A DNA stretch of 64,000 bases, taken from NCBI RefSeq assembly GCF_023566055.1, contig NZ_JALIQP010000002.1, forward strand, positions 682,001 to 746,000. The letters are read 5' to 3'. The notes beneath the pieces were generated by a model. It was not told where the DNA came from. It worked only from the letters and a program-made list of their open reading frames with translations, and ran no database searches. This stretch comes from Halosolutus amylolyticus. GTDB lineage: Archaea; Halobacteriota; Halobacteria; Halobacteriales; Natrialbaceae. This document shows positions 2,880 to 8,213 of this stretch, one piece after another. A program made the translations under genes and the position numbers. Every line of letters begins with the position of its first letter. Positions within the stretch are counted from its first letter, which is position 1.

Positions 2880-3965
2880 TTATCGGGGGTCGGCAGTCGT
2901 GTTCGCTTCGGCACGCTCGTCCAGCCGAATGCCGGTCTTCTTCAGGATCTGCGTCGAGAACAGCGAGTCCCAGTCGTCGTCGGTCACGTCCCAGTAGTCG
3001 GCCATCGTCTCGCGAACCCGTTCGATCCGGCGGTCGCTCTCGGCCTCGCTGCGGCCGTGGGTCATCGCGAAGAAGTTGTACGGCCAGACGCCCTCGTGGC
3101 GCGGTCGCTCGTAACAGTGGGTCACGAACGGGAGCGAGGCGACCGCCGGTCCGACCTCGCTCACGACGTCGTCCGGGACGTTCCAGACCGTCATCCCGTT
3201 CTCCGTGTAGCCCAGCGCGTAGTGGTTCGGGACGACGCCGATCCGCCGGATCTTCCCCTCGCGATCGAACCGGTTGATCGTCTCGCGAGTCCACGCGGGA
3301 TCGCGATCGATCGCGTCGGCGACGTCGGCGTAGGGCGTCTCGGAGAGCGGGAGGCCGTCCTGGATCTCGAGGACGAGGTCGCGTTCGGCCGGCGACAGCG
3401 TCGCCGCGTCGCTCGGGGAGACGTCGGGGCCCAGATCGCGACAGTCGATTCCCGCAGGGTCCCCGTCCGAGCCGTCGAAGGGACCGTCGACGTAGAACTT
3501 GGCCTCCACGCGGAACTCCCGCTGTTTCGGCAGGTTGTACGTCTCCTGGCCGGTCTCGGCCTCGATCGCGTCGAGCACCTCCCGGACCCGATCCTCGTCC
3601 GCGACCGAGACGACGAACCAGACGTTCAGGTGGGGGTGCTCGCGCTCGTAGTTGTGCGCGACCTCGCGGTAGGCGTTGACCTGCTCGACGACCTCGTCGA
3701 ACCGGTCCTCGGGGGCGTGCATCGCGACGAGCGTCGCCGCCCCGCCGATCTCCTGGGCGTTCACGAGCGGGCCGAACCGCGAGAGAACGCCTCGCTCGTC
3801 GAGGTCGCGGATCGTCTCGAGTAGCGACGTCGCGTCGATGTCGACCCCGCGATCGCGCATGGCGGCCGCGGCGGCGTCGAAGGGACGATCGACGACTGGG
3901 AACCCGCCCTGGAAGGCGTTGACGACAGCCCGTTCGCGATCCGTGAGGTCGACGGCCGTGCTCAT
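2880..3965 (-). CDS. Siroheme decarboxylase-type protein, AhbA/AhbB-like two-domain fusion
   Basis: A 361-residue protein built from two tandem Lrp/AsnC-like units, each a winged helix followed by a ferredoxin-like domain. The first unit has DLDERGVLSRFGPLVN and HNYEREHPHLNVWFVVS (about residues 100-120); the second has RFDREGKIRRIGVVPNHYAL and CYERPRHEGVWPYNFFAMTH (about 270-310). The Tyr-Glu-Arg...Trp/Phe patterns are those of siroheme decarboxylase subunits AhbA and AhbB, which remove acetate groups from siroheme to give didecarboxysiroheme. Databases often label such proteins Lrp/AsnC regulators. Its place directly before precorrin-2 dehydrogenase and hemA favours the enzyme reading. A TATA-like box at 3988-3996 is 27 nt before the start. 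Confidence 0.8.
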   Translation of the reverse strand: MSTAVDLTDRERAVVNAFQGGFPVVDRPFDAAAAAMRDRGVDIDATSLLETIRDLDERGVLSRFGPLVNAQEIGGAATLVAMHAPEDRFDEVVEQVNAYREVAHNYEREHPHLNVWFVVSVADEDRVREVLDAIEAETGQETYNLPKQREFRVEAKFYVDGPFDGSDGDPAGIDCRDLGPDVSPSDAATLSPAERDLVLEIQDGLPLSETPYADVADAIDRDPAWTRETINRFDREGKIRRIGVVPNHYALGYTENGMTVWNVPDDVVSEVGPAVASLPFVTHCYERPRHEGVWPYNFFAMTHGRSEAESDRRIERVRETMADYWDVTDDDWDSLFSTQILKKTGIRLDERAEANTTADPR

Positions 3966-3987
3966 ACGAGATGGTCAGGAGTCGCGG

Positions 3988-3996
3988 TGCATAAGC
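3988..3996 (-). promoter_or_regulatory. TATA-like box of the heme/siroheme operon
   Basis: GCTTATGCA on the minus strand is centred about 27 nt upstream of the ATG at 3965. The next two genes downstream are spaced by 43 nt and a 4-base overlap, so this promoter probably serves all three. Confidence 0.5.
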
Positions 3997-4118
3997 GAAC
4001 CGGGATCTCCCCCCGATCGGGATCCTCGTGACAGGACGGTCCGGACGGACAATCAGGATCTGCCTGCGAGCGGCAGGGGAACGTGACGCCCGGAAAATCG
4101 GCCGCCGCGATCGATCGG

Positions 4119-4523
4119 TTACTCCCCTTCGACGCCGGTGACCTCGAAGCCGAGGTCCCGGACGTCCTCGAGGATCGCCTCGTGGTCGGCGCTCGCCTCG
4201 TAGTAGATGACGATGTCGAAACTGCCCTCGCGCAGGAGTTGCTGGCACTCCCAGACGAATTCCTCGTCGTCGAGGGTCAGACCCTGGTGCTGGTTCGACG
4301 AGAAGTCGGTGTCGTCGTTCCCCGAGTAGACGAAGCAGTCTTTCGGGTCGTGGCCCGCGTGTTCGGCGATGACGTCGCCGACGTCGATCGTCGCCTGCAT
4401 CATCTGGACGTCCGCCTGACCGTCGTAGTCGGTGTGGACGATCGCGCCGTTGAGTTCGATGTCGCCGGGTTCCAGCAGCGCCTTCGTTCGCTGGTAGAGG
4501 TCGTCGTCGATTGCGTCTGGCAT
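4119..4523 (-). CDS. DUF5778 family protein
   Basis: A 134-residue acidic soluble protein recognised as the haloarchaeal DUF5778 family from its conserved blocks: ALLEPGDIELNGAIVHTDYD near the N-terminus, VYSGNDDTDFSSNQHQGLTL in the middle and IVIYYEASADHEAILEDVRD near the C-terminus. No catalytic motif or membrane segment is visible, and the function is unknown. It stands alone between the heme operon and the divergently transcribed cis-prenyltransferase gene. A weak TATA-like CTATCC lies about 26 nt before the start. Confidence 0.85.
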   Translation of the reverse strand: MPDAIDDDLYQRTKALLEPGDIELNGAIVHTDYDGQADVQMMQATIDVGDVIAEHAGHDPKDCFVYSGNDDTDFSSNQHQGLTLDDEEFVWECQQLLREGSFDIVIYYEASADHEAILEDVRDLGFEVTGVEGE

Positions 4524-4709: not shown

Positions 4710-5642
4710 ATGAAGCGGTGGCTCCGCCAGCGCGTCGACGCTGCCTACGAGCAATTGCTCACCAGAGAGATCTCCGGCGCGCCGACCCACGTCGCAGTGA
4801 TCCAGGACGGCAATCGACGGTACGCCCGCCGGAAGGGCGAGGACGAGACGGCGGGCCACCGCGCCGGTGCCCGGACGACCGAACAGGTCCTCGAGTGGTG
4901 CCAGGATATCGGCGTCGAGGAACTGACCCTCTACGCCTTCTCGACGGAGAACTTCGAGCGCCCGCCCGAGGAGCGGGAGGCCCTGTTCGATCTACTCGAG
5001 GAGAAACTCCGGGAGTTCGCCGACGCCGATCGCGTCCACGAGAACGAGGTCCGCATCCGCGCGCTCGGCGCCGTCGACCAGTTGCCCGAGCGGGTCCGGG
5101 ACGCCGTCGACTACGCCGAACGGCGTACCCGCGGCTACGACGAGTTCGTGCTCAACATCGCACTCGCCTACGGCGGTCGCTCGCAGTTACTCGAGGCGGC
5201 CCGGGGCGTCGCCGCCGACGTCGAAGCGGGGTCGATCGATCCCGACGAGATCGACGTGGAGACGATCGAACGGCGACTGTACGACGACCCGGTCCGGGAC
5301 GTCGACCTGATCATCCGGACCGGCGGCGACGAGCGCACCTCGAACTTCCTGCCGTGGCACGCCAACGGCAACGAGGCCGCCGTCTTCTTCTGCACGCCCT
5401 ACTGGCCGGAGTTCTCGAAGACCGACTTCCTCCGGGGGATCCGCACCTACGAATCCCGGGAAGAGTCCTGGCGGCGGACCCGCGCCAGGCGGGCGCTCGC
5501 CCTCCTGGGGGCCGTCGGCGACGCCGAACTCCCCGAGGCGCGCTCGATCGTCACCCGGTTCCGGGACTCGCTCCCCACCGCCGAACGGCCCGACGAGGAC
5601 GACCTCGAGACGATCGAGTCGGGGACGGCGGCCGCGGACTGA
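4710..5642 (+). CDS. uppS: Cis-prenyltransferase (undecaprenyl/polyprenyl diphosphate synthase), catalytic subunit
   Basis: The enzyme adds isopentenyl units in cis to an allylic diphosphate and makes the long polyprenyl diphosphate used for dolichol phosphate sugar carriers. The 310-residue protein has every family landmark: HVAVIQDGNRRYARR with catalytic Asp33, YAFSTENFERPPEE, and the C-terminal substrate block DLIIRTGGDERTSNFLPWHA followed by AAVFFCTPYWPEF. About 45 residues extend beyond the usual end. The ATG at 4710 was chosen over a TTG 21 bases upstream: it places the DGNRR motif at the normal distance and a TATA-like ACATAGTCA is about 28 nt before it. A small membrane protein gene follows on the same strand, then a convergent non-catalytic homologue. 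Confidence 0.93.
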   Translation: MKRWLRQRVDAAYEQLLTREISGAPTHVAVIQDGNRRYARRKGEDETAGHRAGARTTEQVLEWCQDIGVEELTLYAFSTENFERPPEEREALFDLLEEKLREFADADRVHENEVRIRALGAVDQLPERVRDAVDYAERRTRGYDEFVLNIALAYGGRSQLLEAARGVAADVEAGSIDPDEIDVETIERRLYDDPVRDVDLIIRTGGDERTSNFLPWHANGNEAAVFFCTPYWPEFSKTDFLRGIRTYESREESWRRTRARRALALLGAVGDAELPEARSIVTRFRDSLPTAERPDEDDLETIESGTAAAD

Positions 5643-5699
5643 CCGATCGAGCACCGGTTCGATCGAAACCTCCAACTCGGACGGCCACGAACCTCGAGT

Positions 5700-5930
5700 A
5701 TGGACCGCCGTCTGTTCGCCTCCGGGGCCGGCACGATCGCGCTCGGCCTCGCCGTCTTTCTCGTGCTCGCAGTGAGCGGTGCCCTTCGACATCCCGCCGC
5801 GGCGGCCGAGCAGACGACCCGGGTCGAGTTCGTCGCGATCGGAGGCGGACTCGTGCTCTTGCTCGTCGGGGTGTTCGCCGCGTTTCTCGCCGTCGTCCGC
5901 CCGACGATCGAGTCCGAGACCGCGCCCTGA
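5700..5930 (+). CDS. Small two-helix membrane protein
   Basis: A 76-residue protein with two predicted membrane helices (about residues 7-29 and 45-66) separated by a short loop, MDRRL at the start and an acidic tail. It begins 57 nt after the cis-prenyltransferase stop on the same strand, so it is probably in the same transcript. I do not recognise a named family, and nothing in it suggests an enzymatic role. Length, membrane pattern and codon usage support a real gene. Confidence 0.65.
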   Translation: MDRRLFASGAGTIALGLAVFLVLAVSGALRHPAAAAEQTTRVEFVAIGGGLVLLLVGVFAAFLAVVRPTIESETAP

Positions 5931-5988
5931 TCGGAGCGATTTGGGACGACCCGCGACCGAAGCGATCTACCGGCCGAACCGCCGTGAT

Positions 5989-6594
5989 CTACCGGCCGAA
6001 CCGCCGCGATCGGTTACAGAACTCCCGGACGGCGCGCAGGAAGTCCCGCTTGCGGAAGTCCCGCCAGTTGACGTCGGTGAAGTACAGTTCCGAGTAGACG
6101 GACTGCCAGATCATGAAATCGGAGAGCCGTTCCGCACCGGTCTTGATCACCAGGTCGGGTTCGGAGGGGAAGACCAGGTGTTCCTCGACGCGTTCGTCGT
6201 CGATCCGATCGGGGTCGAGCTCGCCCGCGTCGACGCTCTCGGCGAGGTTCCGGACGGCGCTCGTAAACTCGTGTTTGCCGCCGAGTCCGATGCCGATCTG
6301 GATCGGGGCGTCGGCGGGCGTCCGGTCCTCGGGACCGCGAACGGCGACGTCCCGCGGCGCGTCGATCGTCTCGAGTTCGCGCCGCAGGGTGGGGACCGCC
6401 GCGGAGTCGAGCACGCTCACGTAGACGGTGACGCGGGAGGCGTACTCGAACGCCCACTCGAAGAAGGCCGTCAGGGTATCGTACGCGCCCTCCTCGAGGA
6501 GGTCCCGTTCGGTGATGATCAGCGCGACGTGCTCGGGAAGGGATCCCTCGTGGCGACGGATCCGGTACGCGAGATATCGTTCGTACAGGCCCAC
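5989..6594 (-). CDS. Non-catalytic cis-prenyltransferase homologue resembling NgBR/Nus1
   Basis: A 201-residue member of the UPP synthase fold family. Where the catalytic partner has VIQDGNRRYARR, this protein has LIITERDLLEEGAYDTL, so the diphosphate-binding Asp and following arginines are missing. The late substrate block survives as EPDLVIKTGAERLSDFMIW, with VYSELYFTDVNWRDFRKRDF after it. The protein ends NRSRRFGR, an Arg-X-Gly motif one residue from the C-terminus, as in the eukaryotic accessory subunits NgBR and Nus1, where it is needed for activity of the heteromeric enzyme. The inference is that it pairs with the neighbouring catalytic subunit. It is convergent with that gene across the small membrane protein. 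Confidence 0.8.
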   Translation of the reverse strand: MGLYERYLAYRIRRHEGSLPEHVALIITERDLLEEGAYDTLTAFFEWAFEYASRVTVYVSVLDSAAVPTLRRELETIDAPRDVAVRGPEDRTPADAPIQIGIGLGGKHEFTSAVRNLAESVDAGELDPDRIDDERVEEHLVFPSEPDLVIKTGAERLSDFMIWQSVYSELYFTDVNWRDFRKRDFLRAVREFCNRSRRFGR

Positions 6595-6875: not shown

Positions 6876-8213
6876 GTGACAGCACCCGTTCGGCGGGCAG
6901 GCGTCTTCGCGATCCTCTGTACGCTCGCGCTCGCCGTCCCGATCGTCGGTCCGCAGGCCGCAGCCCCGATCGCTGCGGTCGTCCTGCTGGGGGCGTTCGT
7001 CGTCACAGACGGACCGCTCTTCGACCTGCTCGCCTACCCGGGCGACTACGAGGACAACCGTCTCTACGGGCTGATCACGTTCGTTCTCGCAGGGATCGCG
7101 CTGGGCCTCATCGCGACCACGTTCTCGCTGTCGATCACCGTCTTCGTCGGGACCGTCCTCCTGATCGGGTACGGGAACCTCGGCGAACAGCTCGCGAGAA
7201 CCCGGACGGACGACGACGTCGTCCACGTGACCGCGTTCTCCCTGTTCGCGACGGCTGCCGCCGTGGTCGGGGGTGCCATCTCGATGAGCTTCGAGTACGG
7301 ACCGGCCGTCGCCGAGTCGCAGCTCCCGACGCTGCTCTTTCTCGCGGCCAGCGGCGCGTTGCTCGCCGCCCTGTTGCGTGACGTGCTCTTCCTCTACGAC
7401 GATCCGGTGGTCATGCTCTCGGTCGGCCTCCTCCTGTGGCTGCTCGCGGAACTCGAGTCCGGGCTTGGTACCGGCGAGATCCTCGTCGCACTGGCAGTCA
7501 CCGTCGCCCTCGGCTACGCCTCCTACGCGCTCGAGACGGCCTCGATCGCGGGGATGCTCACCGGAATCCTGCTCGGCCTGCTGACGATCGTCCTCGGGAA
7601 CTACGGCTGGTTCGTCGTCCTCATCTCCTTCTTCGCGATCGGCGGCCTCTCGACGAAGTTCCGCTACGAGAAAAAAGAGCGCCTCGGCGTCGCCGAGGAC
7701 AACGACGGGGCTCGTGGAAGCGGCAACGTGCTCGGGAACGCGGCCGTCGCGCTCGGAGCCGTGCTCGGCTACGCCGCCAGTTCCGCGGCGTTGCTCCCCA
7801 GCAACCCCGATCCGACCCTGTTCCTCTTCGCGTTCGCCGGGTCGGTCGCCACCGCGATGAGCGACACGCTCTCGAGCGAGATCGGCAGCGTCTTCGAGGC
7901 GCCACGCCTGATCACCACGTTCGAACCCGTCGAACCCGGGACCGACGGCGGGGTCACGTGGCAAGGGGAACTCGCCGGAATCGTCGGAGCGACCGTCGTC
8001 GCCGGCATCTCCTACGCGCTCTTCCCGGAAGTCGGCCTCGCCGGGGCCGCGATCATCGTGGCGGCCGGGTTCGTCGGGATGACCGTCGACAGCCTCCTCG
8101 GGGCCACGCTCGAGGGCACCGTCCTCGGCAACCAGGGCGTGAACTTCCTCGCGACGCTGTCGGGGGCGCTGATCTGTGCCCTGCTCGTGCTTTCCTTCGC
8201 CGTGCTCGGGTGA
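6876..8213 (+). CDS. DUF92 family polytopic membrane protein (possible prenol/polyprenol phosphate kinase)
   Basis: A 445-residue protein of the DUF92/TMEM19 family with about twelve hydrophobic segments. The family blocks lie in the second half: FRYEKKERLGVAEDNDGARG, SVATAMSDTLSSEIG, PGTDGGVTWQGELAG, DSLLGATLEGTVLGNQGVNF. The first 200 residues form an additional membrane domain. DUF92 includes plant VTE6, a phytyl-phosphate kinase; the substrate of archaeal members is unknown to me. Its position beside two cis-prenyltransferase-type genes makes an isoprenoid phosphate substrate attractive, but this is inference. The GTG start at 6876 has a TATA-like TTCAAGTAA about 30 nt upstream. Confidence 0.85.
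   Translation: MTAPVRRAGVFAILCTLALAVPIVGPQAAAPIAAVVLLGAFVVTDGPLFDLLAYPGDYEDNRLYGLITFVLAGIALGLIATTFSLSITVFVGTVLLIGYGNLGEQLARTRTDDDVVHVTAFSLFATAAAVVGGAISMSFEYGPAVAESQLPTLLFLAASGALLAALLRDVLFLYDDPVVMLSVGLLLWLLAELESGLGTGEILVALAVTVALGYASYALETASIAGMLTGILLGLLTIVLGNYGWFVVLISFFAIGGLSTKFRYEKKERLGVAEDNDGARGSGNVLGNAAVALGAVLGYAASSAALLPSNPDPTLFLFAFAGSVATAMSDTLSSEIGSVFEAPRLITTFEPVEPGTDGGVTWQGELAGIVGATVVAGISYALFPEVGLAGAAIIVAAGFVGMTVDSLLGATLEGTVLGNQGVNFLATLSGALICALLVLSFAVLG

Follow-up and report, generated by a model that had tools for sequence, protein, structure and literature searches.

A 64,000-nucleotide stretch of Halosolutus amylolyticus DNA (contig NZ_JALIQP010000002.1; the whole stretch is referred to as the window hereafter) carries two neighboring genes of the cis-prenyltransferase family PF01255, only one of which encodes the catalytic motif DGNRR. 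Are these two proteins with separate tasks, or are they two parts of one enzyme? Two-part arrangements are known from humans, yeast, and plants. In human DHDDS/NgBR, the tail of NgBR crosses the dimer interface and the backbone of its L291 and G292 binds phosphate at the isopentenyl-diphosphate site, R37, E81, N82, and R85 of DHDDS contact NgBR, mostly its tail, and it has been argued that, in a homodimer, the active-site network could not coexist with the C-terminal helix-turn-helix of DHDDS (PMC7573591). The plant enzymes CPT4 and CPT5 lack the tail motif RxG and depend on the RxG-bearing LEW1 (PMC13247534).

For Archaea, a phylogeny published in 2016 treated the enzymes as one gene family and noted distant euryarchaeal paralogues (PMC5088576). 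In Methanosarcina mazei, MM_0618 and MM_1083 were experimentally shown to be a heteromeric cis-prenyltransferase with C45–50 products, according to the citation of Emi et al. (2019, BBRC 520:291) in PMC8131916 (ref. 13). Thus, the archaeal heteromeric cis-prenyltransferase is an already known kind of enzyme. A haloarchaeal or phylum-wide description of such a heteromer was not found in the literature searched, which left out most subscription papers.

Motifs of the two proteins

The two open reading frames reported by the first-pass annotation are present, and both match PF01255 (Table 1). They are convergent, with 346 bp between the stop codons, and they are the only two PF01255 genes in the genome; neither alone has the full motif set.

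Table 1. Positions in the window of the two PF01255 genes, their key motifs, and the adjoining DUF92 gene
Feature	Coordinates	Strand	Evidence
Putative catalytic subunit, DHDDS-like cis-prenyltransferase, 310 aa	4710..5642	+	PF01255, motifs, AlphaFold2 model
DGNRR codons (residues 33–37), catalytic motif of the catalytic subunit	4806..4820	+	each residue 52/52
Putative non-catalytic NgBR/Nus1-like accessory subunit, 201 aa, without DGNRR, end NRSRRFGR	5989..6594	−	PF01255, tail conservation, fold
Codons for the RRFGR end of the protein, the RxG tail that would complete the catalytic subunit's active site	5992..6006	−	RxG in 115/115 homologues
DUF92/TIGR00297 membrane protein, encoded divergently to the accessory gene; may be a functional partner (inferred role)	6876..8213	+	PF01940, 1.7e-59

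The plus-strand protein, referred to as the catalytic protein hereafter, matches positions 1–216 of the 219 in PF01255 (1.7e-69), and its DGNRR, FSTENFER, and IIRTGGDERTSN motifs are all intact. The frame opens at TTG 4689, and the conserved start fits ATG 4710. Twelve residues (D33, G34, N35, R36, R37, S78, E80, N81, R84, R203, R209, and S211) are invariant in 52 aligned catalytic sequences from the whole phylum; among them, R36, E80, N81, and R84 are the equivalents of human DHDDS R37, E81, N82, and R85 (52/52). The three PF01255 positions that the protein misses are exactly the RxG motif: its C-terminus continues with IRTYESREESWRRTR and carries no RxG, a point that the first-pass annotation had missed. 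In the AlphaFold2 model (pLDDT 88.8), this C-terminal part is predicted to form a hairpin of a long helix (237–268) and a second helix (271–287). The top Foldseek match of the model is DHDDS (6z1n_A) over nearly the full length, with a large rmsd that reflects a different placement of the extension. In several further families of the phylum, the catalytic protein is shorter and this extension is missing; thus, it is the loss of RxG, and not the hairpin, that is general.

The minus-strand protein, referred to as the accessory protein, presents the complementary picture. It matches positions 115–219 of PF01255 (4.6e-26), i.e., the second half including RxG. As the first-pass annotation had stated, its translation has EPDLVIKTG but no DGNRR, and its last residues are RRFGR. 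The tail NRSRRFGR aligns residue for residue with NRERRFG of E. coli UppS, and R195, R197, R198, and G200 in it are invariant in 33 representatives. An N-terminal membrane domain was not found in its 201 residues, which start with the charged helix MGLYERYLAYRIRRHEG. Its model (pLDDT 83.7) has the fold of the same family, and a Foldseek search against the PDB returned this fold with NgBR and UppS not distinguished. The last four residues of the tail were modeled with low confidence, which is expected for the protein without a partner but uninformative.

Since the family fold and some of the isopentenyl-diphosphate site (the ERLSDF region) are still present in the accessory protein, it might be regarded as an independent prenyltransferase with a changed reaction. 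We give this idea almost no credence: DGNRR, the GH element, and FSxEN are missing in all of the 33 representatives, and the N-terminal half, where the catalytic site of the family is located, is the least conserved part of the protein. An accessory role in a pair is the reading followed below.

Separation of the motifs in the phylum

The same division of motifs was found throughout the gathered loci of the phylum. The first-pass annotation had staked its reading on the conservation of the RxG ending in orthologues, and a C-terminal R-[FYH]-G is indeed present in 115 of 115 accessory proteins, none of which carries DGNR (0/115). These homologues range from about 35% to more than 85% identity, and the presence of the ending in every one of them excludes chance. 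Even in the three most diverged accessory proteins (families f18 and f24), in which the EPDLVIKTG stretch has decayed, the ends ERERRFGR, ERDRRFGA, and ERSRRFGR are still kept. Conversely, DGNRR is found in 135 of 136 catalytic proteins, the remaining one being truncated by the end of its contig, and none of the 136 carries RxG in register. One candidate exception, an RSG in the catalytic protein of locus L137, was rejected on inspection, as it lies one residue out of register.

Bacterial homodimeric UppS has the same fold and the same motifs, its NRERRFG being the counterpart of NRSRRFG, but it unites in one chain both motif sets that are split over two genes here. All of the 10 bacterial single-gene controls carry the DGN motif, and 9 of them also carry RxG in the same chain. 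Neither protein of the window shows DGNRR and RxG together, the combination that marks a homodimeric UppS. Because the RRFG tail is ancestral to the entire family (NRERRFGG in E. coli UppS, and RxG in 9 of the 10 controls), RxG alone is no pointer to NgBR, and we rejected its presence as evidence of NgBR kinship. The first-pass annotation had proposed a two-subunit synthase, pointing to the end RLGK of human NUS1. Human NUS1 does end in this way (ACEQRLGK), and the two-subunit proposal remains the best reading; what does not stand is the use of the tail as an NgBR-specific sign, since homodimeric bacterial enzymes carry it too. Judged from the sequences, it is rather the phylum-wide loss of the tail from the catalytic partner that points toward an NgBR-like pairing.

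Co-occurrence and ancestry of the pair

A survey of co-occurrence, which the first-pass annotation had suggested, showed that the two types accompany each other. Both were found in 60 of the 61 genomes of the family, the exception being only 53% complete, and one of these genomes has a second catalytic gene. At least two PF01255 members were found in 105 of the 106 genomes of the class. In the phylum sample (Halobacteriota), whose genomes are not phylogenetically independent, 114 of 120 genomes have PF01255 genes, and 113 of these 114 have at least two members, the exception (G229) being 89% complete. Families f18 and f24 appeared as candidates for catalytic-only lineages, which was rejected when weakly matching accessory genes, with RRFG preserved, turned up in a Pfam search of their genomes. 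The nearly complete genome G117 has an accessory gene without a catalytic one, possibly owing to an assembly gap. The pair is also kept where the two genes are far apart, namely by 2.3 Mb in G021, 2.0 Mb in G173, and 1.8 Mb in G152 (contig coordinates). Where both genes were found in one locus, they were convergent in 101 of 101 cases. In the tree, each subunit forms one clade within the phylum (support 98/94 for the catalytic and 100/100 for the accessory clade), which dates the split to before the sampled lineages radiated.

These data bear on another reading, in which the catalytic protein is self-sufficient as a homodimer and its short homologue does something else, as a regulator or a pseudoenzyme. 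M. mazei MM_0014 lacks RxG, yet it is active as a homodimer (PMC8131916), so the loss of RxG by itself is no proof of dependence on a partner; human DHDDS homodimers also have poor but measurable activity (PMC7573591). However, across the phylum RxG has disappeared from the catalytic protein but not from its partner, genomes with the catalytic gene nearly always have the accessory gene as well, and the MM_0014-like proteins are encoded by a third, separate gene where they are present. We thus regard a self-sufficient homodimer as improbable.

Several additional family members were seen in passing. In Methanohalobium evestigatum (G164; loci L131 and L210) and family f10, a short third paralogue of 219 aa with DGNRRWA and the end DITLGG resembles the MM_0014 type, and of the two catalytic-type genes in M. 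evestigatum, one is plasmid-borne (NC_014254.1). At a haloarchaeal locus (L206; G062:C1:478925-479599), an open frame of 622 residues that ends in SLRRNEGR includes a diverged cis-prenyltransferase domain, the third of its genome. Five genomes of family f16 (G151, G160, G169, G178, and G185) have no PF01255 gene at all, although they have kept trans-prenyltransferases.

Proposed enzyme

As judged from the sequences, the two genes of the window most probably (at a probability of about 0.9) encode the two subunits of a heteromeric cis-prenyltransferase whose active site is complemented in trans, as in human DHDDS/NgBR. In the proposed mechanism, the plus-strand protein would supply the catalytic Asp, the diphosphate-binding residues, and the tunnel, and the minus-strand protein, incapable of catalysis, would pair with it via the ancestral dimer face. 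The C-terminal RRFG of the latter would be inserted across the interface and would help to bind isopentenyl diphosphate and Mg2+. The heteromer would then add isopentenyl diphosphate units to an allylic diphosphate (probably GGPP), yielding a polyprenyl diphosphate, presumably the precursor of the dolichyl-phosphate sugar carrier. For H. amylolyticus, we infer the formation of the complex, its substrate and product, and its physiological role. C60 dolichyl phosphate was reported from Haloferax volcanii (PMC10821996), and a dolichol-type chain in the present organism would carry sugars for archaeal surface glycoproteins.

Among the closest known systems, the M. mazei pair is, by the cited description of it, archaeal and of the same phylum, and consists of two PF01255 paralogues that form one enzyme for glycosyl carrier lipids. 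In the related M. evestigatum (G164, L193), both the catalytic and the accessory types are present. One difference is that the haloarchaeal genes are mostly convergent neighbors, whereas the sampled Methanosarcinaceae genes are dispersed. The pair shares with human DHDDS/NgBR (PDB 6w2l, 6z1n) a catalytic subunit that lacks RxG and has a C-terminal helical hairpin (here predicted), a non-catalytic subunit that ends in RxG, and the conservation of the contacting residues. The haloarchaeal accessory protein differs from NgBR in having no N-terminal membrane domain and at most 26% identity to NUS1. In the plant pairs CPT4/CPT5 with LEW1, and in tomato CPT with CPT-BP, RxG is likewise supplied by the partner and absent from the catalytic subunit (PMC13247534), but these are eukaryotic and ER-bound.

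If the proposal is right, a two-subunit enzyme that was biochemically shown in one methanogen would extend to essentially all sampled Halobacteriota, including genetically tractable haloarchaea. The family models label both genes as uppS-like, which hides that they are probably one enzyme. The haloarchaeal pair would be a natural version of DHDDS/NgBR without the membrane domain, which would be useful because, in humans, a glycosylation disorder arises from a mutation in the RxG tail. It would also be a setting in which to test why the tail is transferred to a second subunit in the PF01255 family.

Relation to the eukaryotic subunits

When the profile of the catalytic proteins was compared with the PDB, human DHDDS was the best match (1.5e-72), above every bacterial enzyme (4.7e-70), and the accessory profile matched human NUS1 over its full length (7.5e-11). 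In the tree, DHDDS is placed beside the archaeal catalytic clade (support 92/89), and a placement of DHDDS with the bacteria was not rejected (AU p 0.10). NUS1, with an end branch of 6.0, is too diverged to place. That the split enzyme of Halobacteriota and eukaryotic DHDDS/NgBR descend from one two-subunit archaeal enzyme is a speculative and rather unlikely proposition; if it were true, the two-part build of the eukaryotic dolichol synthase would have been kept from an archaeal ancestor and not invented.

Gene neighborhood

Between the two subunit genes, a 76-codon open reading frame with hydrophobic stretches (5700–5930, plus strand) was noted; it is present in only 9 of 80 related loci. 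These 80 haloarchaeal loci, chosen by similarity to the accessory protein, were also used for the flanking genes. The DUF92 gene lies head-to-head with the accessory gene in 76 of them and in 7 further loci from five non-haloarchaeal families. This adjacency persists at locus L119, despite a distance of 1.8 Mb to the catalytic gene, and in family f17, whose catalytic gene is remote. DUF92/TIGR00297 is the family of the plant phytyl-phosphate kinase VTE6 and of TMEM19. The DUF92 protein is a candidate for an unassigned step at the level of polyprenyl or dolichyl phosphate; according to PMC5088576, it is not known how archaeal dolichyl phosphate synthesis is completed.

The adjacency of the two genes, with and without a nearby catalytic gene, could mean that the DUF92 membrane protein is the main partner of the accessory protein, e.g., for coupling chain synthesis to a later phosphate step, and that binding to the catalytic subunit is secondary. 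We find this very improbable, for a shared promoter region can account for the adjacency, and the most constrained part of the accessory protein, its tail, together with the motifs complementary to those of the catalytic protein, is explained by a cis-prenyltransferase pair.

On the other side of the pair, a fused siroheme decarboxylase AhbA/AhbB and a DUF5778 gene (2880–4523 in the window, minus strand) adjoin the catalytic gene. Within 4 kb, AhbAB was found in 34 and DUF5778 in 67 of the 80 loci, and DnaG was found on the other side in 67 of the 80. The recurrence of these three genes across the loci indicates that the neighborhood as a whole is old.
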